From positions 19,246,642 through 19,310,641 of the forward strand of contig CM055111.1 of assembly GCA_029204225.1 (NCBI GenBank): 64,000 nt of DNA, written 5' to 3'. This DNA comes from Diphasiastrum complanatum. Lineage: Eukaryota > Streptophyta > Lycopodiopsida > Lycopodiales > Lycopodiaceae. The position numbers and the translations under genes are program-made. Positions 4,837-54,996 of this stretch are shown here, piece after piece. How positions within the stretch are numbered: the first letter of the stretch is position 1; every line of letters starts with the position of its first letter. The notes beneath the pieces are model-generated. The model worked only from the letters and a program-made list of their open reading frames with translations. It searched no databases and was not told the origin of the DNA.

Positions 4837-4968
4837 TGGTATCATAGCTCTTGTGTTGCAGGTTATGAAAGGATCAGCCATCTTTAGCAAGGATTTGGAG
4901 GAGTAACCAATGCTAGAGCATGCTAGATTGATTTCTACTAAAGAATCAGCATTTTTGCATGTGTAGAA

Positions 4969-5698: not shown

Positions 5699-5723
5699 CT
5701 GGTCACAAGGAGTTCTTTACTTC

Positions 5724-6587
5724 TTGGTCACTTGTGATGGAGCCAAGCAAGCAATTCACATCGCCAATGGTGGTGAGTATGTGATTGAAGGTATTGGTTC
5801 AATTCCTATTTGTCTCTCTACTAATAGGAAAGCAAGACTTGATGGTGCTCTTTACATTCTTTCACTTTCAAAGAATTTGTTAAGTGTTGGTCAAATGATA
5901 GAGAAAGGATACATGGTAAAGTTTGGTGGTGATGTTTGTTTCATTACAAAGGAAGAAATCTTGGTTGCTAGGGGCAATAGACAAGGTACACTTTTCAAGC
6001 TTGATGCTTTTGTTATGGCTAGCAAAAATGATGGAATGGAAAAGGAGATTGGTCTCAGCTTTCCAAAGTTCCCTTTTAGCATCAATAAGATTGGTGGATC
6101 TTATGCAAGTCTTAAAAGCTTTCCTATGCTAGATCTAGGTCACGATCTAATATGCTTCTTTGAGATATTCATCTTTGTGCTAACTTGGCTAGTCTTGAGG
6201 ATAATGATGGTGTTTCAATGGTTCTTCATGGCAAGTGCAAGCATGCAAAAGGTAAGCAAAGAGCTAACTTCATCAATGGAGGTGAAGGTTCTTCCTTGGA
6301 AAAGATTGTTGCTAATGATTTATTTGATCATATGGAAAAAGATGTTGCTAGGTGCATTCATGAAGGAGGTGGTTCTTCTACATTCTTTTGTTATGATTCC
6401 AAGAAAGTCATTTTTTCAGCAAGTAGAGTCACATGTCTTCATAAAGAGAGTAGATCAAATGGTTCTATCAAGAGACTTGGTGAGGGAGATAGTCACAAGT
6501 CAAGAAGAAGAGAAGTATATGAAGAGTTCAAAGTAGGATGTACTTTGAATGATGTAATTGAGAATGATAGTGAGGAAGAATCACTGC
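5724..6587 (+). pseudogene. Gag-pre-integrase end plus A-type unknown coding segment (A2)
   Basis: 5724-6010 matches the segment before the integrase zinc finger of copia (NLLSVGQMIEKGYMVKF, then LFKLDAFVMA). The integrase itself is absent. In its place is the segment also found in A (36165-37136), including EDNDGVSMVLHGKCKHAKGK and HMEKDVARC, here split by frameshifts over 5724-6536 and 6185-6587. It is not recognisable as any known domain. Confidence 0.75.
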
Positions 6588-6608
6588 TCTCTTCTACATA
6601 ATCCAACA

Positions 6609-18358: not shown

Positions 18359-18394
18359 CTTAGTACAGAGGTCGGGGAAACAATTTGTACATTC

Positions 18395-18640
18395 TAAACC
18401 ATAAACCCTAAATCCTAAGCCGTAAACCCTAAACTCTAAGCCCTAAACCTTGAACCCTTAATCCATATCCTAGATCCTAAATTCTAAACCATAAACTCTA
18501 GACCCTAAATCCTAAACTTTGAAATCTAAAACCTAAACCCTAAATTCTATACCCCAAACCATGAACTCTAAATTTTAAATTCTAAACCCTAAACTCTAAA
18601 TTCCAAGCCATAAATCTTGAATCCTAAATCCTGTACTCTG
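18395..18640. repeat. Degenerate AAACCCT (telomere-like) array
   Basis: About 30 imperfect 7-bp units (AAACCCT, AAATCCT, AAACTCT, AAGCCCT). Equivalent arrays sit at 49776-50050 and 54350-54540, all in R units. Degeneracy and recurrence fit an internal part of the repeat rather than a recent telomere. Confidence 0.9.
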
Positions 18641-19099
18641 AATCCAAAATTGTTGGAAATAAACAGGATCCTATTTTGTTAGTCTTAATCCACTAGAAAT
18701 TGACATATGTTTAAGGATCCTATCTAAAGTTCAGAAAGTTGCTCCACGTATTATCAAATTTTCAGACATCTTGAGTAATCAGATAGATAGCGAGCAACAA
18801 CTATATTGATAGTGATTTGGTTATCTTAATTTCAAACTCAAATTAGAACATATACATTGTTGGTATGCCATCGGAAGCTCAATGTGCAAAATTAACCATA
18901 CAGAAGTCATTTAAAGATCATCACACACTTGAATAATTCAAGATTTATTTATCAATCCACTACAACTTTCATCTACTAGACAAATAAAACAAAGATGATA
19001 AAGATCAATGTTGATACAACAGGTAACAACAAAATGCCACAATTAGTGGTTGCGAATAGAATTGCAAAAGCTGAACTGCCTTCATTGCATTCTACACAG

Positions 19100-25000: not shown

Positions 25001-26582
25001 TGTGAAAGATTCAACTAGTTTCATCATATTTGCTATATTTCTATATTTGGCATATTGAGGCCAAAACTTGTTTTAGACTTAAAGATTGACTTTTCAAAGT
25101 TCATTAGTCTAAATTTCATTTGAATAAACACTTTTTCAAAATGTGGAAAAGTTAGAATGCGAGTTTGAGTAGATTCAAATTTGAATAGTTGGGTACATTG
25201 AATCTAGACCCAAAAATAGTAGGGTTTGCATTTTGGAGGGAAAGCCAAGTGGCCAAATAGGGTATGGACTTGTTATAGAAGGATGTAACTCATGGAGAAA
25301 GCTACATTCTCTCTTCTCTATCTCATTTCATGCTTATACATGGTTCTCTTGGGTTCTACTATCCATTGGTGCACTATCTTGGTGATTGCTTGCAATTCTA
25401 TGTGTAGAATGGTCATTTATTGTTATTTTTGGATCCACACGTGTGAAATATAGTAGCTTGCTGGTTTTTTATGGAAAAAAGCAGTACTTTATCATTTCAT
25501 TCAAGTTTGATCAAGTTCTATTAGTGTTTCCATCTCATTTTGTGTGGAGATGCTGATTTTTCTAGATTGGTGAGATTGGTAGTGTTTTTTTTCTTCTAAC
25601 TTAAGATCATTCAAGAAGATTAGATCATAATGATCTGAAATCTCTCACATGGTATCAAATCTTGTTCTTCAGGTTATGAAGGAGGAAATTAGATCCGTCA
25701 ATGATTTGGTGAAGATATCAAGTCTAGAGCATGCTAGAGAGGATTCTACACCAAAATCGAGTTTTTTGCTTTTGTAGATTGAATCTTTTGTAGATCAAAA
25801 TACTATATAGGTCAATATACTTGATCATTCACATATTGGATTTGGCCAATTTTTGGATCATTGGATCAGCCTAAGTGGTGGGTTATAGATTGCATATTTT
25901 CAAGCATTTGCATGTAGATTTGAAATAGTCAATTTTTGTGATTTTGTCAAAACCCTAATTTTGATTGAATCTCTAGATACTGAGGTTGCTGGACTTCATT
26001 TGAGTGTGTTTCAATCTTAGGAAGTGGCAAAAGTCATTAGATTGAGGATAGATCATAGGTTGTGATCAAGATTCCATGATTCTATGTGCTGATTTGCTTG
26101 GTATAAGTGCTAGAAGAGAAGTTTTGAGATAGTTTCAAATCTTGGTGATTTTTTTTGAAAGCATTTGTTGTTGTTCAAAGGAGTGCTTTGTGCATTGAAA
26201 CAAGTTGAAAGAGAAGATCAGGTCATTGCTACATGGCAACCTCAATTGAAGTCATGTTGGAAGCCAATGATAGGCTTACCTCAAGTAACTATTCATTGTG
26301 GAAAGTGAGGATGGAGTCACTTCTTGAGATGAATGATGTTTTGGATATTGTTGTAGGTTTGGAGGAGAGACCAGCAACACAACGAGACTAAGTGAGGTAT
26401 GACAATAGGGCCAAGAAGGCTCTACAAATGATAAAGATAAATGTTACCAATGAACTTCTCAAGGAAGTTGGTAAGTGCACATCATCTTTGGAAGCTTGGA
26501 ATCCATTGAAGAAGTTTTATGAATCCAATTCTACTTCTAGAGTGTTGACTCTAAGAAGACAATTTTTTTCTTGTTTGTAACT
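25001..26582 (+). mobile_element. 5' end of a B-type copia (B2)
   Basis: LTR at 25001-25649 (TGTGAAAGATTC...CTCTCACA, B family), degenerate primer site TGGTATCAAATC at 25650, leader, and the start of gag. It breaks at about 26582, where an inverted copia fragment begins. Confidence 0.85.
26234..26580 (+). pseudogene. B-type Gag N-terminus, truncated
   Basis: MATSIEVMLEANDRLTSSNY and WKVRMESLLEMNDVLDIVVG as in the Gag of B, a stop at 26390 (in place of Gln), then VTNELLKEVGKCTSSLEAW to a break at RRQFFSCL. About 115 residues of a ~230-residue capsid part remain. Confidence 0.9.
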
Positions 26583-27435
26583 TATGAGCATCTTTTTTAT
26601 ATATCTTTCTTGACTAAGTTGAATGCTCCTATCCTTTTTGCTCCTACTAATTTGAAATCCCAAATAATAGTGCAACTCGCCCATGTCTTTTATTTTTGCT
26701 CTACCTCGCATTGGTGTATAGTTTATGATATCGTCAACATAGATCACCATGATCGTAATTTCTGAACTTGACCTTCTGAAGAAGATGTTATGATCTGTGC
26801 TGCATCTCTGAAATCCTCTACTTTCAAGAAGTAATTCCACTATTTCCTACCATACTCGAGATGCCTATCTGAGTCCATACAGAGCCTTCCTTAGTATGCA
26901 GATCAGATCAACCCCCTGCTCAAATCCCTCAGGCTACCTCAACTACACGTCCTCATCTAAATCAACATCAAAAAAGTCCATTTTAACGTCCAATTGATAT
27001 ATTTCTATGTCATTTATTGCATCCCATGCCAATAGGACTTGATTGCAAAAGTCTCATCAAAATCTATCCCTTCTTTGTTGAACACCCACTTGCATCCTAT
27101 GGCCTTTCTTCTCTTTGGAAGATGCACCAAATTCCATGTCTTATTCTGATGTATGTATCTCATTTCTTCTAGCATTTCCTGATGCCACATGCTCAAATTC
27201 TCTCAGTTTTGAGTTTCTCTAAAGCTTGCAAGTCCATCATGTCTTCCTTGCTCATGAAAACCATATCGGCAAATTTTTGAGGCACCTTTCTTGTTCTGAT
27301 GGGTCTCTTTTCTTCGCTACAATCTGCATCTGGATGCCCTATTGTGTTTTTTTGATGCAAACGCTCCTTTGACCTATTTCTATTCCCATAGCATTGTTGA
27401 ACATCCTTTAATATATTCTCTAGATACACTTGGAT
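26583..27435 (-). pseudogene. Inverted copia Pol fragment (integrase tail and RT remnant)
   Basis: Minus strand: HPDADCSEEKRPIRTRKVPQ linker, RT N-terminal NKTWNLVHLPKRRKAIGCKW, a large deletion, then FQRCSTDHNIFFRRSSSEIT, MVIYVDDI and DMGELHYYLGFQISRSK. It resembles the RT of element E. It lies against the strand of its neighbours on both sides. Confidence 0.85.
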
Positions 27436-28230
27436 CAAACTTTTGGATTCCAAAAGTAAAGTGTTTGAAGCTTTTGTTAAGTTCAAAACTCTAGTTGAAA
27501 ATAAACTTGATTGCTAGAATTAAAGTATCGAGGAGTGATAATGGTGGAGAGTATATCTCCACTAAGATGATAGAGTTTTGTAAATCCAATGGCATTAAAA
27601 GAGAGCTTACATGTACTCATAGTCCTCAACAAAATGGTATAGCTAAGAGAATGAATAGAACACTTTGTGAGTGTGCAAAGGCTTTAAGGCTAGATGCATC
27701 TCTACCTAAGTTTTTTTGGGGCTATTATTTGTGCAACTTATTTGTGTAATAGATTGCCATGTAAGCCCATTGGAGGCATAACATCTTATGAGGCTTTATT
27801 TTGTAAGAAGCCAAATCTTTAAGATCTAAGAATTTTCGGATCTACTTGCTATGTTTTTCAAGCATTAGATACAAGAAAAAAGGATGATCCTATCTCTATA
27901 AAAGGGATCTTTGTTGATTATGCTGAAAATAGCAAAGGATATAGAGTCTATAATCCAATCATTAAAAAGATTTTAGTGAGTAGAGATGTTACTTTTGATG
28001 AAGGTAACTACTACAAGTTAAATGAAAAAGCTCCTAATCCATCTTATGTCAAGGATCCTGCAAGATTTGAGGAGGAGCCTACATGTGATCAAGATCTTGA
28101 GGATCCACCTCAAGATTCGAGGACTCCAAGGAGGTCTACAAGAAGGAAGGCCAAGCCATCTAGGATCAGCTATGTTGACAAAGGTGAACAAAGGAAAGAT
28201 TTTCATTCACTTACCTCTTACACTTTTCTA
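27436..28230 (+). pseudogene. Copia integrase core and C-terminus (C)
   Basis: SRSDNGGEYISTKMIEFC has the second catalytic Asp. In QQNGIAKRMNRTLCECAKAL the catalytic Glu of NGVAERKNRT is Lys, so the site is dead. A frameshift near 27720 leads to the C-terminal domain (27976-28230, VSRDVTFDEGNYY, RTPRRSTRRKAKPSR). The first Asp and zinc finger are missing. Confidence 0.85.
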
Positions 28231-29114
28231 TGTTTGATGAGCCGAGTTGCTTTGAAGAGGCTATGGAGTCACAAGAATGGAGGGATGCCATGCAAAATGA
28301 GTATGATGCTCTTATGGAGAATCATACATGGAAGCTTGTGAATTTTCCTCTTGGAAGAAAACCACTTGAGTGCAAATGGATCTATAGATTGAAGTATAAT
28401 CAAGATGGGAGCATCAAGAAACACAAGGCAAGGCTAGTGGCAAAGGGATTTTTGCAAACCAAGGGAATAGATTTTGATGAAACTTTTGCTCCTATTGCTA
28501 AACTAGTTTCCATAAGGTTGATAATCTCTTGGCCTCTATTCCAACTTGATGTGACTAATGCATTTCTCATTGGCTATTTGGAGGAGGAAATTTTCATGAG
28601 GCAACCCGAGGGCTTCATCAAAGAAGATCAAGAGGAAAAAGTGTGTTTATTGCTAAGAAGCCTTTATGGGCTTAAGCAAGCACCTAGAGCTTGGTACTCT
28701 AGGTTGAATACTTTCTTGAACTCTGTTAAATTTGTTATAAGTGCTTATGATCCTTCTTTGTACTTAAGATTCAATGATGGTAAAATCATCATTCTCATTT
28801 TGTATGTAGATGACATTATCCTTAGTGGAAATGATCATGATGGTATACAAGAAGTGAAAGTAGCATTGTCTAAAGAGTTTAAGATAGTGGATCTTGGTAA
28901 TCTTCATTTCATATTAGGAATAGAAGTTTCAAGAGGCAAAGATTTGAGTTCTATTTGTCAATCCAAATATGCTTTTTCTATTTTAGGAAAAATTGAAATG
29001 AAAGATTGTAAAGGAGTAGAAACTCCTGTGGAGCAAAATGTAAAAGTTTCTAATAGTGATGATGAAGCATCCTTTGAGGACATCAGATTATATAGAAGAC
29101 TTGTAGCTTCTTGA
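28230..29114 (+). pseudogene. Copia reverse transcriptase (C), nearly complete
   Basis: One 294-aa frame covers most of the RT: NHTWKLVNFPLGRKPLECKW, KARLVAKGFLQTKGIDFDET, the first Asp block LFQLDVTNAFL, LLRSLYGLKQAPRAWY, and the second catalytic block LYVDDIILSGND. A short in-frame gap sits just before LFQLDV (SIRLIISW). The frame ends at the start of the RNase H link with a frameshift. It is the best-preserved RT in the window. Confidence 0.9.
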
Positions 29115-29775
29115 TCTATCTTACTATAACTAGGCCTGATCTAAGTTATAGTGTGGGTAAACTAAGCCAATCTATGCAAAATCCATTGGTTTGTGATTGG
29201 AAAAATACAAAAAGGGTGTTGAGGTACATCTCGGCCACCAAGAACTTTGGCATTTTATATGATGGATCTAATGTTGCCTTAAGGACATATTTGGATGCTG
29301 ATTTTGTAGGTGATAAGGTGGATAGGAGGTCCACAAGTGCCTTGTTACCTTTCTTTGCAATGACATAGTGTCTTGGCTTTCCAAAAAGCAAGATACTATT
29401 TCTCTATCTTCAACCAAGTCAGAATACAAGGCACTAACATCCACAACAAAGGAGATCTTATGGTTGAAGAGGCTTTTGGTGGAGTTGCAAGTCGTGGAGG
29501 CCGAGGAGCAGCCAATAATATATTGTGACAACCAATCAAGCCAAGCATTAGCAACCAATCCCACATTCCATGCGAGGAGCAAGCACATAGAGATTGCTCA
29601 CCATTTTGTGAGGGAAAAGGTTCAAGCAAAGGAGATCAAGCTACATCACGTGTCTTCAATAGGTTGCCTTGCTGATATACTCACTAAAGCCTTGCCAAAG
29701 GCTTCATTTATCAAGTTAAGATCAGCTTTAGGAGTTGTAGATAGATGTACTATAGTTGTATCATGTAAAAATTGA
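29111..29775 (+). pseudogene. Copia RNase H (C)
   Basis: YLTITRPDLSYSVGKLSQSM, LRTYLDADFVGDKVDRRSTS, then after a frameshift near 29368 LSSTKSEYKALTSTTKEILW, YCDNQSSQALATNPTFHARS and CLADILTKALPKA. Acidic residues of the RNase H site are present, but the frame is broken once. Confidence 0.9.
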
Positions 29776-33652: not shown

Positions 33653-34303
33653 TGAGAGATTTCAACTAGTTTAGTCTAGTTTAGTCACATTTTGGTAAAT
33701 TGTCAATAAGAGGCCAAAACTCATTTTAGACTTAGAGATAAACTTTTTGAAGTTATATTAGTTTAAAATACATTCAATAAACACTTCTGGAAAGTGTGAG
33801 AAAGTTGGTAGTCGAGTTTGAGAGAGATTCAGATTTGAACTTTGGTACATTGAATCTAGACCCAAAAATAGTAGGGTTTACATTTTGGAGGGAAAGCCAA
33901 GTGGCCAAATAGGGTTTGAAAACTCTATAAAAGGATATAACTCGTGGAGAGACACATCTTCTCTCTTCTATCTCTCATTTCATCATTATATATGGTTCTC
34001 TTTGGGTTCTACTACTCATTGGTGCACTATCTTGGTGTTATCTTGCAATTCTATGTGTAGAATGATCATTTATTGTTATTTTCGGTTTCACACGTGTGAA
34101 ATATAGTAGAATACTATAATTGTACGAAAAGCAAACATATTTTATGTTTTGGTTCATGTTTGATCAATATCTCTTAGAGTTTGCATCTCATTTTGTATGT
34201 AGATGCTGATTTTTCTACATTGGCAGGATTGTTGGTTTGCTCCTTATTGTAACCAAAGATTTGGGACATGGATTGGATCTTGAATGATCTGAAATCCTTC
34301 ACA
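33653..34303 (+). repeat. 5' LTR of A
   Basis: 651 bp. TATA box CTATAAAAGG at 33925-33934. By eye the LTRs differ at roughly 3-4 percent of positions over the first 500 bp, so the insertion is not brand new. Confidence 0.92.
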
Positions 34304-34315
34304 TGGTATCAGAGC
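34304..34315 (+). promoter_or_regulatory. Primer-binding site of A
   Basis: TGGTATCAGAGC directly after the LTR, a perfect complement of the 3' end of plant initiator tRNA-Met. Confidence 0.95.
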
Positions 34316-34904
34316 TCTTGTGTTTCAGTTTATGAAAGGATCATCCATATTTAGCAAGGATTTGGAGGAGTTACCAATGCTAGAGCATGCTAGATTGATC
34401 TCTACTCAAAAACCAGCATTTTTGCATGTGTAGAATTGATCTTTTGTAGGTCAAAACTCAATATAGGGTTATGTACTTGATCAATTCTGATTTCACACTT
34501 GGTTTACTGGATTTAGATGATATTTGGTGCATTAGGAAGGTCTCATTGGAGTCTACAAGAAGATATACCAAGTTTCTAGAAATTGCATGTAGAATTGGAG
34601 ATATTCAATTTTTTGTTATTTTGTCAAAACCCTAATTTTGATTGGATCTCTAGTTTGTGAGGTTACTGAACTTCATTTGAGTGTGTTTAAATCCTAGAAA
34701 GTGGCAAGAATCATTAGATTGATGATAGATCATAGGTTGATCAAGATTTCACTATTCTATGTGCTGATTTTCTAGTTAGAAGTGCTAGAAGAGATTTGAG
34801 AGGTTCCATATCGTTGTGATTTCTTCTTGAGTTCATTTTTTGACATTCAAGAAAGTGCTTTGTGCATTGGAACAGGTTGAAAGAGAAGATCAGGTCACTT
34901 CAAC

Positions 34905-35978
34905 ATGGCTACAAGTGGTGGATTTATGTTGGAGAGCAATGATAGGCTTACCTCAATCAACTATTCTACTTGGAAGGTGAGGATGGAGTCCTTATTGGAG
35001 ATGAATGAGTTGATGGAGATTGTTGCAGGTGTGGAGGAGATACCTCAAGCACCTCAAGATCAAGTGAGGTATGACAAGAGAGCAAAGAAAGCTCTACAGA
35101 TGATTAAGATGAATGTTACCAATGAACTTCTCAAGGAAGTTGGTAAGTGCACATCATCTTTGGAGGCTTGGGAAGCTTTGAAGAAGCTTTATGAATCCAA
35201 GTCTGCATCAAGAGTGCTTACTCTTACGAGACAAATCTTTCAAAGTTTGCAAAAGAAGGAAGAGAGTACTCATGCTTTTGTTTTGAGAGTTAAAGCATAT
35301 AATGATGAGTTAGCATGTATTGATGAAAGCATTAAGGAGGAAGAACTTGTTCAAGTTATACTTAATGGCTTGTTGGATGATCATGCTAATCTTGTTCAAA
35401 GTTTTGCTATTCAAAAGACTTTGCTAAGTATTGTGGATTTGCAAGAGATCTTGGTGAATGAGGAGTATAGGCTTCAATCAAGAAGAGGTGGATCTACATC
35501 GACATCTCATTATGACGAGGAGGCTATGTTCATCAAAGGCAAGTTCAAGGGCAAAGGCAAAGGCAAGTGGTCTAAAGGGCAAGATCAAGGTAAGACTTCT
35601 TCTTTTGGCAAAAAGAAAGATAAGTCTAAGTTGAAATTCTTTTATTGTGGAATCAAAGGGCATTTTGCAAATGAATGTTTGAAGAAGCAAAGAGATGAAG
35701 GTAGCAAGCAAATCAACTTTATTACTAATGATGAGGATCTAGATGGTGGTGATTCTCTTTTGATGTGTTCTTCAAGTCCAATATCAAGTGAAGGTGACAA
35801 AGATTTATGGTGGATTGATAGTGGAGCTAGTTCACACATGACTAGTCACAAGGAGTTCTTTACTTCTTTGGTCACTTATGATAGAGCCAAGAAAGCAATT
35901 CACATGGCCAATGGTGGTGAGTGTGTGATTGAAGGTATTGGTTCAATTCCTATTTCTCTCTCTACTAATAGGAAATGA
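34905..35978 (+). CDS. Gag with altered zinc knuckle and protease motif (A)
   Basis: Copia Gag capsid region from residue 1 (SGGFMLESNDRLTSINYSTW to about 190), a Lys/Gly-rich segment, then a CCHC knuckle at residues 245-258 in which the first Cys is Phe (FFYCGIKGHFANEC). The aspartic protease motif WWIDSGASSH follows (Asp at 305). A TGA at 35976-35978 interrupts a frame that otherwise continues to 37136; A2 has a sense codon there. Start chosen as the first ATG with Gag homology to B. Gag would form the particle; with the altered knuckle, RNA binding may be weakened. Confidence 0.88.
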   Translation: MATSGGFMLESNDRLTSINYSTWKVRMESLLEMNELMEIVAGVEEIPQAPQDQVRYDKRAKKALQMIKMNVTNELLKEVGKCTSSLEAWEALKKLYESKSASRVLTLTRQIFQSLQKKEESTHAFVLRVKAYNDELACIDESIKEEELVQVILNGLLDDHANLVQSFAIQKTLLSIVDLQEILVNEEYRLQSRRGGSTSTSHYDEEAMFIKGKFKGKGKGKWSKGQDQGKTSSFGKKKDKSKLKFFYCGIKGHFANECLKKQRDEGSKQINFITNDEDLDGGDSLLMCSSSPISSEGDKDLWWIDSGASSHMTSHKEFFTSLVTYDRAKKAIHMANGGECVIEGIGSIPISLSTNRK

Positions 35979-37136
35979 AGACTTGATGGTGTTCTTTACA
36001 TTCCTTCACTTTCAAAGAATTTGATAAGTGTTGGTCAAATGATAGAGAAAGGATACATGGTAAAGTTTGGTTGTGATGCTTGTTGCATTACAAAGGAAGA
36101 AATCTTGGTTGCTAGGGGCAATAGACAAGGTAGACTTTTCAAGCTTGATGCTTTTGTTATGGCTAACAAAAAGGATGGAATGGAAAAGGAGATTGGTCTC
36201 AACTCTCCAAAGTTACCTTTTAGCATCAATAAGATTGGTGGATCTTATGCAAAGTCTAACAAGCTTCCTTATGCTAGATCTAGGTCAAGATCTAATATGC
36301 TTTTTGGAGATGTTCATCTTTGTGCTAACTTGGCTAGTCTTGAGGATAATGATGGTGTTTCAATGGTTCTTCATGGCAAGTGCAAGCATGCAAAAGGTAA
36401 GGAAAGAGCTAACTTCGTCAATGGAGGTGAAGGTTCTTCCTTGAAAAAGATTGTTGTTAATGATTTCTTTGATCATATGGAAAAGGATGTTGCTAGGTGC
36501 ATGCATGAAGGAGGTGGTTCTTCTACATTCTTTTGTGATGAGTCCAAGAAAGTCATTTTTGCAGCAAGTGGAGTCACATTTCTTCATAAAGAAAGTAGAT
36601 CAAATGGTTCTATCAAGAGACTTAGTGAGGGAGATAGTCACAAGTCAAGAAGAAGAGAAGTATGTGAAGAGTTCAAAGTAGGATGTACTTTGAATGATGT
36701 CATTGTGAATGATAGTGAGGAAGAATCATTATCATATGATTCATTACCTAAAACATTGAGTAGAAGTTCTTGTTTGAAAAAAGAGAGTACTTCAATCATC
36801 CTTATGTTGAAGGTACTAATCATTTTTTTCATGGCTTCTAATGTTTTTGAGGTTTCTACTTCTTATGATGCAATCATTAAGAGGGAGTCTTATGAAGGAA
36901 AGAGCAATGGAAGATTGGTTCTTGGGAAGATCCAAGGCATGGATCTCACATCTCTTCATCAACTCAAAGGATTCTATGATTGTGACTTGATCACTCATGA
37001 TCAAGATGGCAAAAAGTTGGTTGGAGAAGACTACATGGAGCAAATCGAGAGGCAATTTCTTCAAGCCAAGGGAGATCTCATTGGTGAGCTTATTGAGGTT
37101 TGTTATGGACTCAAGAGGGCGGATTTATTAGGTTGA
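35979..37136 (+). CDS. Unknown coding segment 1, in frame with Gag (A)
   Basis: Begins with the pre-integrase block (FDKNLISVGQ-type; GYMVKFGCDACCITKEEILV; LFKLDAFVMA). Where the zinc finger WHKRMGHL of B follows, A instead carries about 325 residues of no recognisable domain (36165-37136): Ser/Lys-rich parts, SMVLHGKCKHAKGKERANFV, FFDHMEKDVARCMHEGGGSS, a hydrophobic patch LMLKVLIIFFMASNVF, and a C-terminal YMEQIERQFLQAKGDLIGEL. It shares one frame with Gag, so it was read as a Gag fusion before the TGA arose. A2 has the same segment. It could be a captured host sequence or remodelled Pol. Confidence 0.6.
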   Translation, partial: RLDGVLYIPSLSKNLISVGQMIEKGYMVKFGCDACCITKEEILVARGNRQGRLFKLDAFVMANKKDGMEKEIGLNSPKLPFSINKIGGSYAKSNKLPYARSRSRSNMLFGDVHLCANLASLEDNDGVSMVLHGKCKHAKGKERANFVNGGEGSSLKKIVVNDFFDHMEKDVARCMHEGGGSSTFFCDESKKVIFAASGVTFLHKESRSNGSIKRLSEGDSHKSRRREVCEEFKVGCTLNDVIVNDSEEESLSYDSLPKTLSRSSCLKKESTSIILMLKVLIIFFMASNVFEVSTSYDAIIKRESYEGKSNGRLVLGKIQGMDLTSLHQLKGFYDCDLITHDQDGKKLVGEDYMEQIERQFLQAKGDLIGELIEVCYGLKRADLLG

Positions 37137-37161
37137 TACTCATCTTCACCTACTCTACTTC

Positions 37162-37403
37162 ATGTTGGATGGAAAGTTTGGAATCTATCTTTTGATTTAT
37201 GATGGTGACATTGATGACATTGTTTTCACTAACCATTGTGGAAATTCGAGATCAAGCATTGATGAGTTCTTGTTGGATATTGATCATATGTTTGAGAGGG
37301 AGTATTTCCAGAGGTTCAGGTCTGAAGATATTCATATCTCTGATATCTTTGATGATCAAGAGAAAGGTAAGCAAGTGGAAGCGACTCACTTTGCTTTACT
37401 CAC
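37162..37403 (+). pseudogene. Linker resembling the integrase-RT junction (A)
   Basis: DDQEKGKQVEATHFALLT resembles YDQKGKQVVSGNYIAFLTSL of B, which lies between integrase and RT, so a trace of the Pol backbone remains here. It is in a different frame from both neighbours. Confidence 0.5.
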
Positions 37404-38288
37404 ATGTTTGGAGAATTGTTTTGTGTAGATGATGCTATGCAAGTGGATATTGATTCTCATGGTTTTCATACTAGAAAAAAAAGTAATGGATCTGAAAAAC
37501 AAATTTTGTTCAATGACTTTGATGGTCAAGAGGAAGATCAAGAGGTTGGTCTCAAAGGGCTTCAACAACACAAAAGGAAAGGTGGCAATTTGGAGCTAGT
37601 CAAGAGCATCAAAGGAGAGATAATTGGCAAAGATGTTATGGATCTATTTTTGCAGCTTATTGAAAACTCAAGTAAGGTCAAAGGAACAGCAAGAAAGTGT
37701 TGTTCAAGTTTACTTTACTTGTTCTATCTCATGTTTGAGCTATTTCATGTGAATGTGTGCAAATTGTCAAGATATGGACAAACTAGTTACATTGTCTTGC
37801 AATATCTTATTGTTGGAGTTGTACTAGCATTCTTGGCTGGTTTTGCTGATGAAAATAAAGCTATTGGAGGTTCATTACATCACTCATTCATGGCCAAGTC
37901 ATCAAGTGTTGATGATATCCTGTGGCAAGATGGAGATGGAGGCTCATTATGGAGTTTTATGGTGAATACATATCAAGAAAGGACAAAGTTGGAGGAGACA
38001 AGCAAGAAAATGGTCATCACTCACATTTATTGTTTGGTTGCTGTAATTTTTCAGAGAGTTCAAAGTTTGAAACATGGAGAAATCATTTCATTCACATTCT
38101 ATTTGGTTCTTCATGTTCTAGTTATATTTTGATGTGCAAAATTGATGTAAGAAATAGTGAAGCATCCAATTTGGACACTATTCTCTATATCAATTATGAA
38201 AGATACTTTAGAACCTTAGAAAGAAGATCTATACTTAGGATGGAGATCATTCTAAAGTTGGATCAAAGTTCTATTGTCAAAACTATGC
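37404..38288 (+). CDS. Unknown coding segment 2 (shared with B), A copy
   Basis: The frame 37404-38132 matches the C-terminal 340 residues of the long B ORF: GSEKQILFNDFDGQEEDQEV, LELVKSIKGEIIGKDVMDLF, ARKCCSSLLYLFYLMFELFH. It then shifts frame near 37920 to 37922-38314, matching HSHLL, CKIDVRNSEAS, DTILYINY. Hydrophobic stretches (LLYLFYLMF; LIVGVVLAFLAGF) hint at membrane-associated or buried helices. The family is unrecognised. Relative to B about 180 bp are absent. The right edge AAAACTATGC is the same as in B. Confidence 0.6.
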
Positions 38289-38311
38289 CAAAACTAGTTG
38301 AAGAGGGAGTG

Positions 38312-38830
38312 TGAGAGATTTCAACTAGTTTAGTCTAGTTTAGTCACATTTTGGTAAATTGTCAATAAGAGGCCAAAACTCATTTTAGACTTAGAGATAA
38401 ACTTTTTGAAGTTGTATTAGTTTAAAATACATCCAATAAACACTTTTGGAAAGTGTGGGAAAGTTGATAGTCGAGTTTGAGAGAGATTCAAATTTGAACT
38501 TTGGGTACATTGAATCTAGACCCAAAAATAGTAGGGTTTACATTTTGGAGGGAAAGCCAAGTGGCCAAATAGGGTTTGGAAACTCTATAAAAGGATGTAA
38601 CTCGTGGAGATACACATCTTCTCTCTTCTATCTCTCATTTCATCATTATATATGGTTCTCTTTGGGTTCTACTACTCATTGGTGCCCTATCTTGGTGTTA
38701 TCTTGCAATTCTATGTGTAGAATGATCATTTATTGCTATTTTCGGTTTCACACGTGTGAAATACAGTAGAGTACTATAATTGTGTGGACAGCAAACATAT
38801 TTTATGTTTTGGTTCATGTTTGATCAATAT
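38312..38830 (+). repeat. 3' LTR of A, left part (split by B)
   Basis: Starts after the purine tract TTGAAGAGGGAG. The LTR stops at GATCAATAT (38830) and resumes at 44853 with AATATCTCTTAG, ending 44990. Confidence 0.95.
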
Positions 38831-39480
38831 TGTGAAAGATTTCAGATCCTTAAGATCCAATCTACTTGAATGAACTTTGGTTAGAAACAGAAATACACTA
38901 CCACTTTCATCAATGTAGAAAAATCAGCATCTACACACAATTTGAGATGCAAACACTAATAGAACTTGATCAAACTTGAATGAAATGATTATGTACTGTT
39001 TTTGTCCGTACAAAACCAGCAAGCTACTGTATTTCACACGTGTGGATCCAAAAATAGCAAACATAGATCATTCTACACATAGAATTGCAAGCAATCACTA
39101 AGATAGTGCACCAATGGATAGTAGAACCCAAGAGAACCATGTATAAGCATGAAATGAGATAGAGAAGAGAGAAGATGACTCTCTCTACGAGTTACATCCT
39201 TTTATAACAGGTCCAAATCCTATTTGTCCACTTGGCTTTTCCACCAAAATGCTAACCCTACCAATTTTGGGTCTAGATTCAATGTACCCAACTTATTCAA
39301 ATTGAATCTACTCAAACTCGTATTCTATCTTTCCCACACTTTCAAAAAATGTTTATTCAAATGAAATTTAGACTAATGAACTTTGAAAAGTCAACCTCTA
39401 AGTCTAAAACAAGTTTTGGCCTCAATATGCCAAATATGGAAATATTGCAAAATGTGATGAAACTATTTGAATCTTTCACA
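38831..39480 (-). repeat. 3' LTR of B
   Basis: 650 bp, TGTGAAAGATTTC...ATCTTTCACA on the plus strand. The purine tract (minus strand CTAGTTGAAGAGAGAG) borders it at 39481. Confidence 0.95.
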
Positions 39481-40066
39481 CTCTCTCTTCAACTAGTTTT
39501 AGCATAGACTTTGATAATACTCCAAGTGAAGTCCTATGCTTCATGAACAAGTCTTTTCCCAATGCTTTGGTGAATATATCAGCTACACATTCCCTTGAAG
39601 ACACATGTTGAAGCTCCACCTCCTTTGCAATGACTCGCTCTCTCACAAAATGATATTGTATCTCAATATGCTTGCTCCTAGCATGAAAGATAGGATTGGA
39701 TGCCATTCTTTGGGCTGATTGATTGTCACAAAAGATGATTGGGCTCTCTGAAAAATCCAGCAAGTGAAGATCCTTGATCATCCTCTTGGTCCATACCATC
39801 TCCTTTGTGCAATGTGTAAGAGCTTTGTACTCGGCCTCACTAGATGACAATGAGATAGTGGCTTGTTTCTTTGACATCCATGATATAGCTCCATCACCTA
39901 TGAAAATACAATAAGAACTAATGGATTTCCTATCCATTACATCTCCAGCATAGTCCGAATCTGAAAATCCAAAAAGATTAGGTGATGATCCCTCATACAA
40001 TATGCCAAAATCTCGAGTTCCAATGATGTACCTCAAAACTCGCTTTCCTAGCTTCCAATGCTCCTA
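39476..40066 (-). CDS. Copia RNase H (B)
   Basis: From EHWKLGKRVLRYIIGTRDFG the frame covers RNase H: FGFSDSDYAGDVMDRKSISS, ISLSSSEAEYKALTHCTKEM, FCDNQSAQRMASNPIFHARS, CVADIFTKALGK, ending LVEERV at the purine tract. The usual acidic residues (Asp in SDSDYAG, Glu in EAEYKA, Asp in CDNQSA) are present. It is shifted one frame from the upstream ORF. It would normally be joined to RT, which is missing here. Confidence 0.9.
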
Positions 40067-42057
40067 GCATAGTTTTCGCCAATAGAACTTTGATCCATCA
40101 TAAGAATGATCTTCTTCCTAAGAATAGATCTCCTTCCAATGATCATGTAATGCTCAAAATAGAAACAACCATAATTGATATAGAGAATAGTGTCCACTTG
40201 GGATGCTTCACTATTTCTTACATCAATTTTACATGTAAAAATGTGACTAGAACATGAAGAATCAAATAGAATGTAAATGAAATGATTCCACCATGCTTCC
40301 AACTCTGAACTCTCTGGAAAAATACAGCAAACAGACAATAAATGTGAGTGATCAACTTTGGCTTGCATGTCTCCTCCTCCTTTGTCCTTTGTTGCCTTGT
40401 ATCCACCATGATACTCCATGAATGAGCCTCCATCTTCACCTTGCCACAAGAAACCATCAAACCTTGGAAATCCATGAGTAGGTGAGTACATTAATGATGC
40501 AAATCCAGCACCACATGACTCCATAAACCAAGTAGTTTGCACTAGTCCATCTTCAAGATCTTCTTGACACAAGAAAATGACCATGAATTCACCAAAAATT
40601 GACAATCTCCAAGTATTGGCACCAAGTAGCTCAACACTTGAGAACTTAGCCACGGATGAGTGACATAATGAACCTCCAATAGCTTCATTTCCATCAACAA
40701 AATCAGCCAGAAATTCTAGTACAAATCCAACATCAAAACAATGCTCACCAATGTAGCTAGTTTTACCATATATTGACAATTTGCACACATCCACATGAAA
40801 TTGCTCAAACATGAGATAGAACAAGTAAAGTAAACTTGAACAACACTTCCTTGCTGCTCCTTTGACCTTACTTGAGTCTTCAATATGTTGCAAAAACAGA
40901 TCCATAACACCTTTGCCAATTACCTCTCCTTTGATGCTCTTGACTAGCTCCAAATTGCCAACTTCTCTTTTGACTAGTTGAAGCGCTTTGAGATCAACCT
41001 CTTGATCTTCAACTTGACCATCAAAGTCATTGAACAAAATTTGTTTTCCAGATCCATTACTTGATTTTACAGCAAGATAACATCCATCCACTTGCATAGC
41101 TCCATGTACACAAGAAGATTCTCCAAAAGATGTTCCACTCTTCATAAGAGATCGATACTCAAGATCCATTGCTTGGATCCACTCCTCTTCTTTCCTTACT
41201 TGATCTACACTTGTCAGCTCATCCAAAGAGGTTAGGAAAGCAATATAATTTCCAGAAACTACTTGCTTACCCTTTTGATCATATGTGAGCCTTGAAGGTA
41301 CTTGTCTTTCTCTTGATGTTCTCCTTGGCTTTTGACTTGATGAAGGTCCATCATCACCACCATCCAAAGTAGGATCCTTCTCATCAACATCAAGAATGTT
41401 AGAACCATCAATCATGCTTGAAGACACCATTGGAATGTTTCCCTCATAAAAAATGACATCTCTACCAACAATCACTTTGTTAGTAGAAGGAATGTAAACC
41501 TTGTAGGCTTTACTCACCTCACTATATCCAAAAGAAATACCTCTACTTGAAGATGAATCCTCCTTGGTCCTATCATCAAGAGTAATGTTGACATAGCATG
41601 TGCATCCAAAGGTTCTTAGAAAGTTGACACTCGGCCTCCTCTTGAATAGCATCTCAAAAGGTGTCCTTCCATCCAAAATAGCACTCGGCCACCTATTGCA
41701 CAAGAAATTGGCACACAACAAAGCTTGATCCCAAAATGGTCTATCAAGATTAGCACTTAACCTCATAGCTTTAGCACTCTCACATAAAGTTCTATTCTTC
41801 CTTTCAGCCACTCCATTTTGTTGTGGAGTCCTTGATGTTGTATACTCCCTCTTAATCCCATGCTCATCACAAAAGGCCTTGAACTTGTTAGATATGTACT
41901 CACCACCATTGTCACCTCTCAAGCACTTGATCTTTGTGGAGAATTGGTTTTCCCTTACATTCTTGAACTTGACAAAGACATCATACACTTCATCCTTGGT
42001 CTTTAGTAGATAGATCCAACAAAATCTACTAAAATCATCAATGAATGTTACATACAT
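40048..42057 (-). CDS. Integrase fused to unknown segment 2 (B, 669 aa)
   Basis: Residues ~1-310: integrase core and tail, with VTFIDDFSRFCWIYLLKTKD, KCLRGDNGGEYISNKFKAFC (second Asp) and TPQQNGVAERKNRTLCESAK (Glu), then TPFEMLFKRRPSVNFLRTFG and the RRTSRERQVPSRLTYDQKGK linker. The first catalytic Asp, upstream in the same frame, reads HSYIHG where HSDxHG is expected. After LEYRSLMKSGT, where RT would start with a Trp, the frame enters segment 2 (SSCVHGAMQVD to 40078) without a stop. The upstream Gag frame is the same, separated only by a TAG at 42148. What segment 2 does is unknown. Confidence 0.8.
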   Translation of the reverse strand: MYVTFIDDFSRFCWIYLLKTKDEVYDVFVKFKNVRENQFSTKIKCLRGDNGGEYISNKFKAFCDEHGIKREYTTSRTPQQNGVAERKNRTLCESAKAMRLSANLDRPFWDQALLCANFLCNRWPSAILDGRTPFEMLFKRRPSVNFLRTFGCTCYVNITLDDRTKEDSSSSRGISFGYSEVSKAYKVYIPSTNKVIVGRDVIFYEGNIPMVSSSMIDGSNILDVDEKDPTLDGGDDGPSSSQKPRRTSRERQVPSRLTYDQKGKQVVSGNYIAFLTSLDELTSVDQVRKEEEWIQAMDLEYRSLMKSGTSFGESSCVHGAMQVDGCYLAVKSSNGSGKQILFNDFDGQVEDQEVDLKALQLVKREVGNLELVKSIKGEVIGKGVMDLFLQHIEDSSKVKGAARKCCSSLLYLFYLMFEQFHVDVCKLSIYGKTSYIGEHCFDVGFVLEFLADFVDGNEAIGGSLCHSSVAKFSSVELLGANTWRLSIFGEFMVIFLCQEDLEDGLVQTTWFMESCGAGFASLMYSPTHGFPRFDGFLWQGEDGGSFMEYHGGYKATKDKGGGDMQAKVDHSHLLSVCCIFPESSELEAWWNHFIYILFDSSCSSHIFTCKIDVRNSEASQVDTILYINYGCFYFEHYMIIGRRSILRKKIILMMDQSSIGENYARSIGS

Positions 42058-42147
42058 CTTAGCTCCACTATTGCTAATTGTAGTAAATCCATGAATATAT
42101 GAATGTACAAGTTGAAAAGGCTTTGTAGATCTAGAAATAGATCTAGT

Positions 42148-43602
42148 CTAAGGTAGTCTATGTGACTTAGACAAAGCACAAGACTCACAAACATGCTTGT
42201 CATTGCTTAAGGAACTTGGAAGACCAATCACAACCTTCTTCCTTGCCATTACCTCCAATGACTTGAAGTTGAGATGTCCCATCCTTTTGTGCCAAACCTC
42301 TTGAATAGAATTTTGCTCCCTTGCAACACATCCAACTTGGTTAGCAATAACACAAGCATCAAGTTTGAACAACTTCCATTGTCTTTTACCTGTTCCAATC
42401 AAGACATCCTTCATTTTGATCAAACAAGCATCTCCATCAAACTCGACATTGAGGCCTTTACTTAGCATTTGACTCACACTAAGCAAATTCTTGGTAATAG
42501 ATGGAATAAACAAGACATCCTCCAAATGAACATTCCTATTTGTAGAGAGAGAAATAGGAATTGTGCCAATCCCTTTGATTGCACACTCACCATCATTGGC
42601 CGTGTAGATCACCCTCTTGTCATATCCATATGCCAAAAAAGAAGTGAAGTATTCTTTGTAAAAGGTCGTGTGTGAACTTGCTCCACTATCAATCCACCAA
42701 GGATCTAGATCTCCATCATTAGCAAGCATACATGAAGACATCACAAAAGCATCATCATTTGCATCTTGCACATCCAAACCATCCTCATCAAGAGTAAGAT
42801 TACCTTGCTTGTCTCCTTGATCTCTCTTCTTCTTGTAGCACTCACTTGCAAAGTGTCCTTTGATGCCACAATAGAAGCACTTGAGCTTTGATCTATCCTT
42901 CTTTCTGCCACTTGAAGAAGCATCCACTTGATCTTGTCCTTTAGACCACTTGCTTTTGGTTTTACCCTTGAATTTGCCCTTTGTGAACATAGCATCTTCT
43001 TGAAGTGTCGATGTAGATCCACCTCTTGCTTGAAGCCTATATTTCTCATTGATCAAGATCTCTTGAAGATCCATCAAACTTGGCAAAGTCTTTTGAATAG
43101 CAATACTTTGAACAATGTTAGCATGAGCATCCAACAAGCCATTAAGAATCACTTGAATAAGCTCTCCTTCCTTAATGCTTCCATCTATGCAAGCTAACTC
43201 ATCATTCAATGCTTTCATTCTCAAAACAAAAGTACTTGGACTTTCTTCATTCTTTTGAAAACAAGAAAAGATTTGTCTTCTTAGAGTCAACAATCTAGAA
43301 GTAGACTTGGATTCATAAAGCTTCTTCAATGAATTCCAAGCTTCCAAAGATGATGTGCACTTACCAACTTCCTTGAGAAGTTCATTGGTAACATTTATCT
43401 TTATCATGTGTAGAGCCTTCTTGGCCCTCTTGTCATACCTCAATTGATCTTGTTGTGTTGCTGGTCTCTCTTCCAAACCTACAACATTATCCAAAACATC
43501 ATTCATCTCAAGAAGTGACTCCATCCTCACTTTCCATAATGAATAGTTACTTGAGGTAAGCCTATCATTGGCTTCCAACATGACTCCAATTGAGGTTGCC
43601 AT
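42148..43602 (-). CDS. Gag-protease-integrase zinc finger (B, 484 aa)
   Basis: Copia Gag (residues 1-~230; ANDRLTSSNYSLWKVRMESL), knuckle CFYCGIKGHFASEC at 242-255, aspartic protease motif WWIDSGASSH with Asp305, pre-integrase block LFIPSITKNLLSVSQMLSKG, and the integrase zinc finger WHKRMGHLNFKSLEV (from 437) with CESCALSKSH. It ends at a TAG in the same frame as the integrase ORF, so Gag-Pol was one frame as is usual for plant copia. The intact knuckle and protease contrast with A. Confidence 0.93.
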   Translation of the reverse strand: MATSIGVMLEANDRLTSSNYSLWKVRMESLLEMNDVLDNVVGLEERPATQQDQLRYDKRAKKALHMIKINVTNELLKEVGKCTSSLEAWNSLKKLYESKSTSRLLTLRRQIFSCFQKNEESPSTFVLRMKALNDELACIDGSIKEGELIQVILNGLLDAHANIVQSIAIQKTLPSLMDLQEILINEKYRLQARGGSTSTLQEDAMFTKGKFKGKTKSKWSKGQDQVDASSSGRKKDRSKLKCFYCGIKGHFASECYKKKRDQGDKQGNLTLDEDGLDVQDANDDAFVMSSCMLANDGDLDPWWIDSGASSHTTFYKEYFTSFLAYGYDKRVIYTANDGECAIKGIGTIPISLSTNRNVHLEDVLFIPSITKNLLSVSQMLSKGLNVEFDGDACLIKMKDVLIGTGKRQWKLFKLDACVIANQVGCVAREQNSIQEVWHKRMGHLNFKSLEVMARKKVVIGLPSSLSNDKHVCESCALSKSHRLP

Positions 43603-44190
43603 GTAGCAATGATTTGATCTTCTCTTTCAACCTGTTTCAATGCATAAAGCACTCCTTTGAAAAACAACAAATGCTTTTAAAAGAAATCACCAAGATTTGA
43701 AACTATCTCACAAATTCTCTTCTAGCACTTATCCAAACAAATCAACACATAGAATCATGGAATCTTGATCAACCTATGATCTATCCTCAATCTAATGACT
43801 TTTGCCACTTCCTAAGATTGAAACACACTCAAATGAAGTCCAGCAATCTCACTATCTAGAGATCCAATCAAAATTAGGGTTTTGACAAAATCACAAAAAA
43901 TTGGCTATTCCAAATCTACATGCAAATGTTGAAAATTTGATATGCAATCTATAAGCCACCACTTAGGCTAAACCAATGATCTAAAAATCGGCCAAATCCA
44001 GCATGTGAATTCAAAAAATGGAATTGAACAAGTATATTGACCTATTTAGTGTTTTGATCTACAAAAGATCCAATCTACAAAAGCAAAAAATCCGATTTTG
44101 GTGTAGAATCCTCTCTAGCATGCTCTAGACTTGATATCTTCACCAAATCATTGATAGATCTGATTTCCTCCTTCATAACCTGAAACACAA

Positions 44191-44202
44191 GCTCTGATAC
44201 CA
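44191..44202 (-). promoter_or_regulatory. Primer-binding site of B
   Basis: Minus strand TGGTATCAGAGC directly next to the 5' LTR. Confidence 0.95.
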
Positions 44203-44852
44203 TGTGAAAGATTTTATATCCTTAAGATCTAATCTACTTGAATGATCTTTGGTTAGAAAGAGAAATACACTACCAATTTCACCAATGTAGAAAAATCAGC
44301 ATCTACACACAATTTGAGATGCAAACACTAATAGAACTTGATCAAACTTGAATGAAATGATTATGTACTATTTCTGTCCGTACAAAACCAGCAAGCTACT
44401 GTATTTCACACGTGTGGATCCAAAAATAACAAATATAGATCATTCTACACATAGAATTGCAAGCAATCACCAAGATAGTGCACCAATGGATAGTAGAACC
44501 CAAGAGAACCATGTATAAGCATGAAATGAGATAGAGAAGAGAGAAGATGACTCTCTCTATGAGTTACATCCTTTTATAACAGGTCCAAATCCTATTTGTC
44601 CACTTGGCTTTCTCACCAAAATCCTAACCCTACCAATTTTGGGTCTAGATTCAATGTACCCAACTTATTCAAATTGAATCTACTCAAACTCGCATTCTAT
44701 CTTTCCCACACTTTCAAAAAGTGTTTATTCAAATGAAATTTGGACTAATGAACTTTGAAAAGTCAACCTCTAAGTCTAAAACAAGTTTTGGCCTCAATAT
44801 GCCAAATATGGAAGTATTGCAAAATGTGATGAAACTAGTTGAATCTTTCACA
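44203..44852 (-). repeat. 5' LTR of B
   Basis: 650 bp. A minus-strand TATA-like TTATAAAAGG is at about 44570-44580. Confidence 0.95.
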
Positions 44853-44990
44853 AATATCTCTTAGAGTTTGCATCTCATTTTGTATGTAGATGCTGATTTT
44901 TTTACATTGGAAGGATTGTTGGTTTGCTCCTTATTGTAACCAAAGATTTGGGACATGGATTGGATCTTGAATGATCTGAAATCCTTCACA
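44853..44990 (+). repeat. 3' LTR of A, right part
   Basis: Starts with the second AATAT copy; matches 34166-34303; ends ATCCTTCACA at 44990, followed by GTGTA of H. Confidence 0.95.
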
Positions 44991-49611: not shown

Positions 49612-50466
49612 AGATGGGCATTAAAATTTCGGCTACTAGGTGAGAATCAATAAGAGGAAGTGAACTCTTTTCTCTATACGCCTAATATTACACGTTAATT
49701 GCAAAACACTAATCCCCTATTCTAAAATCGTGAATTGGCCTACTAGTACAGAGGTCGGGGAAACTCTTCGTACATTCTAAACCATAAACCCTAAATCCTA
49801 AGCCGTAAACCCTAAACTCTAAGCCCTAAACCCTGAACCCTAAGCTTTGAACTCTAAATCCATATCTCAGATCCTAAATTCTAAACCATAAACTCTAATC
49901 CCTAGATCATAAACTCTAAACGCTAAAACCTAAACCCTAAATCCTAAATCCCAAACCATGAACTCTAAATTTTAAATTCTAAATCCTAAACCCTAAATTC
50001 CAAGCCATAAATATTGAATTCTAAATTCTGAACTCCAAATCCTAAATTTTGTTAGTCTTAATCCACCAGAACTTGATCCTATCTAGAGTCCACAAAGTTG
50101 CTCCAGGGATTATCAAATTTTCAGATGCCTTGAGCAATCAAACAGATAGCGAACAACAACTATATTGGAAGTGATTCGGGTATCTTAATTTCAAACTCAG
50201 AACAAATACATTGTTGGTATGCTATCGGATGCACAATGTGCAGAATTAACTATATTAAATTCATTTAAAGATCATCACAGACTCGGATAATTCAGGATTT
50301 GTTTATCAATTCACTACAACTTTCATCTACCAGACAAATAAAACAGTGACGATAAAGATCAATGTTGATACAACAGGTAGCAACAAAATGCCACAATCAG
50401 TGGCTGCGAATAGAATTGCAAAAGCTGAACTGCCTTTGTTGCATTAGCAGAAGATAAAGGAGCATA

Positions 50467-54181: not shown

Positions 54182-54996
54182 AGATGGGCATTAAAATTTC
54201 GGCTACTAGGTGGGAATCAATAGGAGGAAGTGAACTCTTTTATCTATATGGCTAATATTAAATGTTAATTGCAAAACTCTAATCCCCTACCCTAAAATCG
54301 TGAATTGGACTACTAGTACAGAGGTCGAGAAGACTCTTCGTACATTCTAGACCTTAAACCCTAAATCCTAAGCCATAAACCATAAACTCTAAACCCTGGA
54401 TCATAAACTCTAAACGCTATAACCTAAACCCTAAATTCTAAATCCCAAACCATGAACTCTAAATTTTAAATTCTAAATCCTAAACCCTAAATCCCAAGCC
54501 ATAAAGTTTGAATCCTAAATTCTGAACTCTGAATCCAAAATTGTTGGAAATAAACAGGATCCTATTCTGTTAGTCTTAATCCACCAAAACTTGATCCTAT
54601 CTAGAGTCCACAAAGTTGCTCCAAGGATTATCAAATTTTCAGACATCTTGAGCAATCAAACAGATAACGAACAATAACTATACTGCTAGTGATTTGATTA
54701 TCTTAATTTCAAACTCAAATCAGAACAGATACATTGCTGGTATGCTATCGAATGCACAATGTGCAAAATTAACCATACAGAATTCATTTAAAGATCATCA
54801 CGCACTTGAATAATTCAGGATTTATTTATCAATTCACTACAACTTTCATCTACCAGACAAATAAAACAGTGATGATAAAGATCAATGTTGATACAATAGG
54901 TAGCAACAAAATGCCACAATCAGTGGCTGCAAATAGAATTGAAAAAGTTGAACTGCCTTCGTTGCATTAGCAAAAGATAAAGGAGCATACACAGAA

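Follow-up and report, generated by a model that had tools for sequence, protein, structure and literature searches.

Family B, a group of Copia retrotransposons in the genome of the lycophyte Diphasiastrum complanatum, lacks reverse transcriptase (RT) alone and carries in its place an open module that recurs in other retroelement families at different junctions. Judged from its sequence, B is probably a non-autonomous family that was born of recombination between retroelements and would be mobilized in trans by P, an RT-bearing sister family.

Results

The window, meaning the whole 64,000-nucleotide stretch of DNA that was analyzed, contains a full-length, non-autonomous Copia insertion of 6022 bp on the minus strand (element B, 38831-44852), delimited by its long terminal repeats (LTRs) and a 5-bp target-site duplication, AATAT (left, 38826-38830; right, 44853-44857). 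The 5' LTR (44203-44852) and 3' LTR (38831-39480), both on the minus strand, are 650 bp long, read TGTGAAAGA...TTTCACA at both ends of the element, and stand at a K2P distance of 0.0331. The word TGGTATCAGAGC (44191-44202, minus strand), which we take to be the primer binding site (PBS), is repeated unchanged at 34304-34315 in element A, a member of family A on the plus strand (33653-38830). B is inserted in the 3' LTR of A, which resumes at 44853-44990, and the empty AATAT target is seen at 34166-34170 in A's other LTR; the nesting shows in which order the two elements were inserted.

Within B, all on the minus strand, a gag-protease (PR) open reading frame (ORF) with Pfam matches to Retrotran_gag_2, zf-CCHC, Pol_BBD, and gag_pre-integrs (42148-43626) is followed by the integrase (INT) core and C-terminal part (rve and SH3_retrovirus in Pfam; 41134-42147), which form one open frame with the module (40066-41129). 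A TAG at 42150-42148 separates gag-PR from INT in the window copy only (1 of 24 readable copies). The RNase H ORF (39476-40063) is recognized by motif and by alignment to an RT-bearing copy and was without a match in the Pfam search of B. The element has what a Ty1/copia element should have, namely, TG..CA LTRs, a target duplication, a PBS, a polypurine tract (PPT), and gag-PR-INT before RNase H, and it lacks what an autonomous one needs, an in-frame RT domain.

The earlier note, made from the letters of the window, had described an INT frame that passes LEYRSLMKSGT into unrecognized protein and continues in frame to RNase H. Its description of the RT loss and of an open module is borne out: the frame runs on for about 355 codons, for which Pfam gave nothing at E ≤ 1; the module is followed by the RNase H block EHWKLGKRVLRYI; and RT is missing between INT and RNase H. 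The continuity into RNase H is not. The module is in frame with INT, but their common ORF (42147-40048) terminates at ...YARSIGS, and RNase H (40063-39476) lies in a different frame. Compared with an RT-bearing sister copy, exactly 1064 nt (41129-40066) stand in place of 879 nt of RT/connection, and because 1064 is not a multiple of three, the RNase H frame is lost. Of the 30 copies fetched, 28 are readable here, and all of them keep the stop at 40050-40048; the frame mismatch is thus a family trait. The open frame of the module, at 358 codons, is beyond chance: in 1000 first-order simulations of equal length, none of the six frames stayed open for more than 165 codons. Six of the 21 copies listed can be read without interruption from the edge of the locus through INT and the module. 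At 40221-40490, the module is also overlapped by an open stretch in a different frame, which is 90 codons long here and 107 codons long in several copies.

The 3' junction of B, AGGAGCA (40059-40065, minus strand), is found both at the module end of a subfamily termed B2 and where RNase H begins in the RT-bearing family. In the window's own genome (1.74 Gb), the 3' junction word of B occurs at 548 + 524 = 1072 places (≤2 mismatches) on many contigs, so B is a family rather than a single copy and is found without RT at many places. A first look for the module gave 3503 candidates, and the best 40 of these by similarity, which are not a random sample, were scored; besides the window copy, they comprise 39 copies at about 98%. 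The 2851-nt INT-module-RNase H stretch aligns whole in 19 of the 30 best copies and piecewise in the other 11, at about 97%; five pairs within these 30 differ by four module columns or fewer, and the copies are thus partly nonindependent. An ordinary decay, deletion, or assembly artifact of one copy might be suspected from the extra stop at 42150-42148, but it has practically no probability left, as the same junction stands at 1072 places on many contigs and the LTRs and target duplication are intact. The copy counts rule it out, and the view of the earlier note that neither random decay nor a simple deletion had made the structure is upheld.

Family P carries RT where B carries the module. 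The INT-RT join word ATGAAGAGTGGAACATGG occurs at 669 + 671 = 1340 genome places (≤1 mismatch), an upper bound, since the word also stands at loci L054 and L056, which lack RT, and at L071, a B-type copy in which a base has changed; YVDD follows in frame within 600 nt of the join word at 14 of the 30 loci read. Against B, the P copy L076 (which contains L064) is 96.4% identical over 44149-41130 and 97.0% over 40065-38919, and between 41130 and 40065 the two do not align, 879 nt of RT/connection standing against the 1064-nt module. B also shares its LTR (96.3%) and an alike PPT region with L076, which was read over a stretch that includes neither a 5' LTR nor the PBS; an RT-bearing sister with a common LTR and PPT, such as an autonomous partner should be, is thus present. 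Trees built from loci with long enough hits, for INT (24 B, 19 P, and 3 B2) and for RNase H (28 B and 14 P), show B and P intermixed, and a single origin of B is therefore unproved.

The module is not confined to B. Family A, whose gag-PR is 77% identical to that of P and whose pol tail and LTR are 80% identical, has 2.1 kb of its own sequence (X) where INT-RT-RNase H would be. X consists of X1 (36171-37406, plus strand), a coding-like orphan stretch that follows gag-PR and contains a weakly RT-like block, and of the family A module (37407-38288, plus strand), which is joined straight to the last pol residues. One open frame of 682 to 783 codons reaches the end of X in 5 of 15 family A copies (L033, L036, L040, L043, and L045), and the module is part of an orphan ORF of about 700 codons that fills the INT-RT-RNase H place of family A. 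The 3' junction word of family A occurs at 2221 genome places (≤2 mismatches); four occurrences at exact 3089-bp steps (C1:25526018-25535310) suggest a tandem array of part of a family A element.

Two further arrangements were found, of which subfamily B2 is represented by three loci (L046, L054, and L056) and family T by one old copy at one locus (L077). The B2 module is without a 174-nt in-frame segment of the B module (40467-40640, minus strand, edges approximate), which is absent from the A, B2, and T copies read. In L046 and L056, the B2 module meets a later point of RNase H, and the stretch of L054 ends before it. In T, INT is followed by the module from its position 194 onward and then by the same later RNase H point as in B2. 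The B2/T 3' junction word occurs at 1041 places (≤3 mismatches), among which some mutated RNase H copies may be included, and a word from the module core occurs at 5546 places (≤3 mismatches). The frame at the junction, kept in A, B, and T and lost in L046 and L054/L056, is uninformative.

Several observations concern the distribution of these sequences. At least 47 exact module words, among the 100 listed up to this region, crowd into about 2 Mb (C1:48.25-50.30 Mb), which may be a centromere or a duplicated block in which this family abounds; L077, the one stretch read in this region, carries old family T copies. Nine exact B2/T junction words form a second local crowd within 0.56 Mb (C1:24.28-24.84 Mb). 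In the window itself, an element fragment at 4374-6600 has a gag about 95% like that of A and is rearranged beyond gag. A nested cluster at 25029-29775 has an LTR and gag like those of B (90 to 94%), followed after gag by minus-strand RT-like pieces and then by the INT-RT-RNase H of a different Copia lineage, named by motif only. Degenerate CCCTAAA-like arrays lie inside the chromosome at window positions 18373-18672, 49747-50062, and 54264-54542.

The module junctions differ among A, B, B2, and T. The three joins that are comparable on both sides all fall at matches of 7 to 10 nt: L054/L056 join at ACATGGAG, common to the INT-RT join and the module; L046 joins at TACATGGAGC, between RT (VYMEQ) and the module, with the RT side seen in L050, L055, L061, and others; and the 3' join of B falls at AGGAGCA, where the end of a B2-type module meets the RNase H of P. 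For the 5' join of B, no clear short match and no donor were found. The occurrence of the module in several families at different junctions implies that it moved between families, most simply, on these sequence patterns, by template switching, as joins at short matches are the pattern made by RT jumping between copackaged RNAs. Recombination of copackaged RNAs within one family has been shown for Onsen of Arabidopsis, in the parts of that account drawn on here (PMC5668417). Gene conversion between genomic copies is a possible alternative to RNA template switching. For the window copies of A and B, gag has a dS of 0.57 over 361 codons, and the module gives 0.13 over 141 codons and 0.25 over 91; the lower values in the module indicate that its exchange came after the split of the gag lines.

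The profile searches and structure prediction that the earlier note had proposed were run, the profile searches without a sound match of the module to a known RT or other domain and the structure prediction without a fold. No family scored above the cutoff for the module or X in Pfam or NCBIfam, and there was no sound sequence match in PDB; the weak matches were at E = 0.18 in NCBIfam, E = 1.4 in PDB, and E = 0.014 for an endonuclease-like Pfam model in X1. Rfam and plasmid tblastn searches gave no sound match, and among 7991 candidates scored, no protein matched X at E ≤ 1. AlphaFold returned neither a fold nor a confident residue, with mean pLDDT values of 27 for the module and 26 for A's ORF, from shallow alignments of 20 and 10 low-diversity sequences.

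By composition, the module was or is coding. G is distributed over the three codon positions as 120/72/58 in the module, 117/75/64 in X1, and 97/60/49 in A's module, and in each case none of 1000 simulations was as uneven. No such unevenness is seen in the B-only 174-nt piece (12/10/19; 117 of 1000 simulations) or in an LTR used as a control (504 of 1000).

Strong codon periodicity and an open frame in the module and X1 are what captured exons would show, and captured genes are usually sense oriented, according to the portions of the source that we draw on (PMC7264820). Both fit the suggestion of the earlier note that the module is a transduced host sequence, i.e., a clubmoss gene fragment picked up by the element in the manner of maize Bs1. 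The searched libraries yielded no relative of the module outside this genome, and its sole protein match is an annotated ORF, P0001, which ends like a family A copy. No cellular donor is recognizable, in a genome scan that covered the best 40 places and in which a diverged donor gene could hide, and wherever the context was read, it is a retroelement with gag or INT. On these grounds, we consider transduction unsupported and unlikely, about as unlikely as the accessory protein discussed below.

Divergence between families sets the module apart from its neighbors. Omega is 0.95 and 0.75 in the module versus 0.35 in gag, and in the first module piece, the shifted frames used as a control give 0.66 and 0.69 versus 0.95 in the true frame. 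Differences between A and B by codon position are 0.19/0.15/0.30 in gag-PR and 0.126/0.173/0.116 in the module; those between B and T, as judged from the one old copy (L077), are 0.18/0.15/0.325 in gag-PR, 0.146/0.153/0.325 in INT, and 0.16/0.19/0.168 in the module. Gag-PR and INT thus differ roughly twice as often at third positions as at first or second ones; gag and INT are conserved between families, and the amino acids of the module are not. Against the closer copies (P, L046, L054, and L056), there is little third-position excess even in gag and INT, so this contrast rests on A and T. The earlier note had named a dN/dS near 1 with randomly placed stops as speaking against its reading; the ratio is indeed near 1 (0.75 to 0.95), but stops appear only when single copies are considered, the module being free of them in 19 of 30 B and 10 of 14 A copies.

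Differences fixed between families were counted in 30 B copies and 14 of 15 A copies (L043 was dropped, as its end word was not found) after removal of copy-private changes. They fall on the codon positions of the module as 27/38/24, and the single ones comprise 47 nonsynonymous and 6 synonymous changes on 663.7 and 164.3 sites, with 16 codons bearing two or three differences excluded. The modules of A and B are separated by indels of 9, 174, and 12 nt, each divisible by three, and fixed stops are absent, with about 4.2 expected (89 changes x 0.048). In-frame indels and the lack of fixed stops hint, in copies chosen by similarity, at more frame keeping than a pure passenger would show. Variants shared within B are too few for a measure of selection inside the family (by codon position, module 4/5/7, INT 7/6/11, and RNase H 5/3/1). 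Among the few other copies, the module has one stop and 1- and 2-nt indels in L046, one stop and a 10-nt indel in L054, no stop and one 12-nt indel in L056, and five stops and several indels in the T copy.

The earlier note had also proposed an accessory protein spread by template switching. Spread of the module by this route fits best with its presence in A, B, B2, and T at differing junctions. A conserved protein does not fit: judged by omega, the module lacks the amino acid constraint expected of an accessory ORF, and it is without the third-position excess present in gag and INT of the same elements. A fast-evolving accessory protein with an anti-silencing, packaging, or env-like function, under selection that may include positive selection and traded between families, would agree better with a frame open in A and B, in-frame indels only, a coding composition, and an excess of nonsynonymous over synonymous single fixed differences (47 versus 6, about 1.9 per site). 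We nevertheless regard such a protein as unlikely: the distribution 27/38/24 does not depart from chance (chi-square of 3.7 with two degrees of freedom), AlphaFold gave no fold (from shallow alignments), no relatives were found, the module is out of frame with INT/RT in the three B2 copies, and in B it is stopped at the RNase H join.

The module could instead be the ghost of an element's own RT-RNase H, i.e., the decayed connection and RNase H of an old non-autonomous lineage. X1 contains an RT-like block, YMEQ...YGLKR...LLIYDGDI, with YDGDIDD in the place of the catalytic YVDD, for which homology is borderline. This block, just upstream of the module in A, scores 66 against L064 (reached by 1 of 300 shuffles) and 72 against L061 (0 of 300), and only 3 of 500 shuffles reach the score of the alignment from YMEQ to the end, which includes the RT-like block and the shared last residues. 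At the DNA level, A's X scores 564 against L064, shared tail included, and the best of 30 simulations scores 557. Against this, the scores with two further RT copies were reached by 21 and 22 of 300 shuffles (stops were treated as X for all four copies). When the module was aligned with connection plus RNase H, the figure was 44 of 500, and it rose to 260 of 500 once the shared tail was removed; on a Copia RT-RNase H profile of 118 sequences, A's ORF was outscored by 46 of 2000 shuffles. The first 24 pairings tried gave 4 of 200 shuffles at best, and the module had no profile or pairwise match to known RT or RNase H domains. A ghost RNase H that was convincing by eye failed both pairwise and profile tests. 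We consider this origin of the module very unlikely.

Discussion

The reading we favor, non-autonomous birth of B by recombination, would run as follows. Copackaged RNAs would have recombined when RT jumped between them at short matches, the most direct parents presumably being a P element, which reads AGGAGCA/TTGG at the join, and a B2-like element, in which CTATGCTAGGAGCA/AGC marks the passage from the module to RNase H. The RT and RNase H of P-type elements could then act on B in trans via the shared LTRs and polypurine tract, and B would thereby have spread to about a thousand copies. B may itself still make Gag, protease, and integrase, while the module would be a passenger or spacer rather than a working enzyme. 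Why its frame is open can be suggested less firmly: it may have originated recently from a real ORF, or a stop might expose the RNA to decay.

The latter thought can be carried further, to a mobile filler frame that is acquired repeatedly by template switching and in which selection keeps the frame and not the amino acids. Such an open frame across the missing enzyme might shield the packaged RNA from nonsense-mediated decay or keep its length. We think it unlikely that this is the correct description.

B is not named in the titles or opening lines of abstracts of the open-access papers listed in our literature searches. Its closest published plans, as far as the portions of these reports considered here describe them, are those of RLG_Quinta and the RLG_Sabrina variants, from which B differs by losing RT alone. 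RLG_Quinta of einkorn wheat encodes GAG and DUF1 without RT and INT and is proposed to be mobilized by its autonomous sister RLG_Cereba, with exchange by recombination (PMC11302176). Family A, with gag and an unknown part and with INT and RT absent, has the same plan and fits a Quinta-like element, as B, which retains INT, does not. Quinta and Cereba are Gypsy elements, whereas B is a Copia element that retains INT and RNase H sequence, and here the unknown part is common to several families at differing junctions. In the RLG_Sabrina variants of wheat, a coding stretch has likewise been swapped for an unrelated protein-encoding sequence, but it is GAG-Pro that is replaced in Sabrina and RT in B; four of the proteins encoded by the variants are described as having no relatives, and each variant has several hundred copies (PMC9744471).

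Other systems, again as the consulted parts of their accounts present them, are alike in fewer respects. The RLC_Angela subfamilies of wheat are Copia elements whose non-autonomous partners coevolve with autonomous ones; the Angela coding region is degenerate throughout, whereas gag-PR-INT of B is open in some copies and RT is cleanly exchanged (PMC9744471). BARE2 of barley is a Copia element without one function, presumed to be served by a sister, and there GAG is disrupted, whereas in B it is RT that is absent (PMC9744471). Maize Bs1 is a retroelement that has taken in foreign sequence, but it carries known host gene sequences, whereas no host source was found here (PMC7264820).

Family B offers a clear natural case, in a lycophyte, of the birth of an RT-less family, with an RT-bearing sister and recombinants with differing junctions alongside it, and the exchange can be dated to after the split of the gag lines. 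The loss of RT only, with integrase kept, differs from the losses described for wheat in the parts of those reports on which we draw (PMC11302176, PMC9744471). The frame of the orphan ORF seems to outlive its sequence, which makes a "frame without protein" a testable idea.
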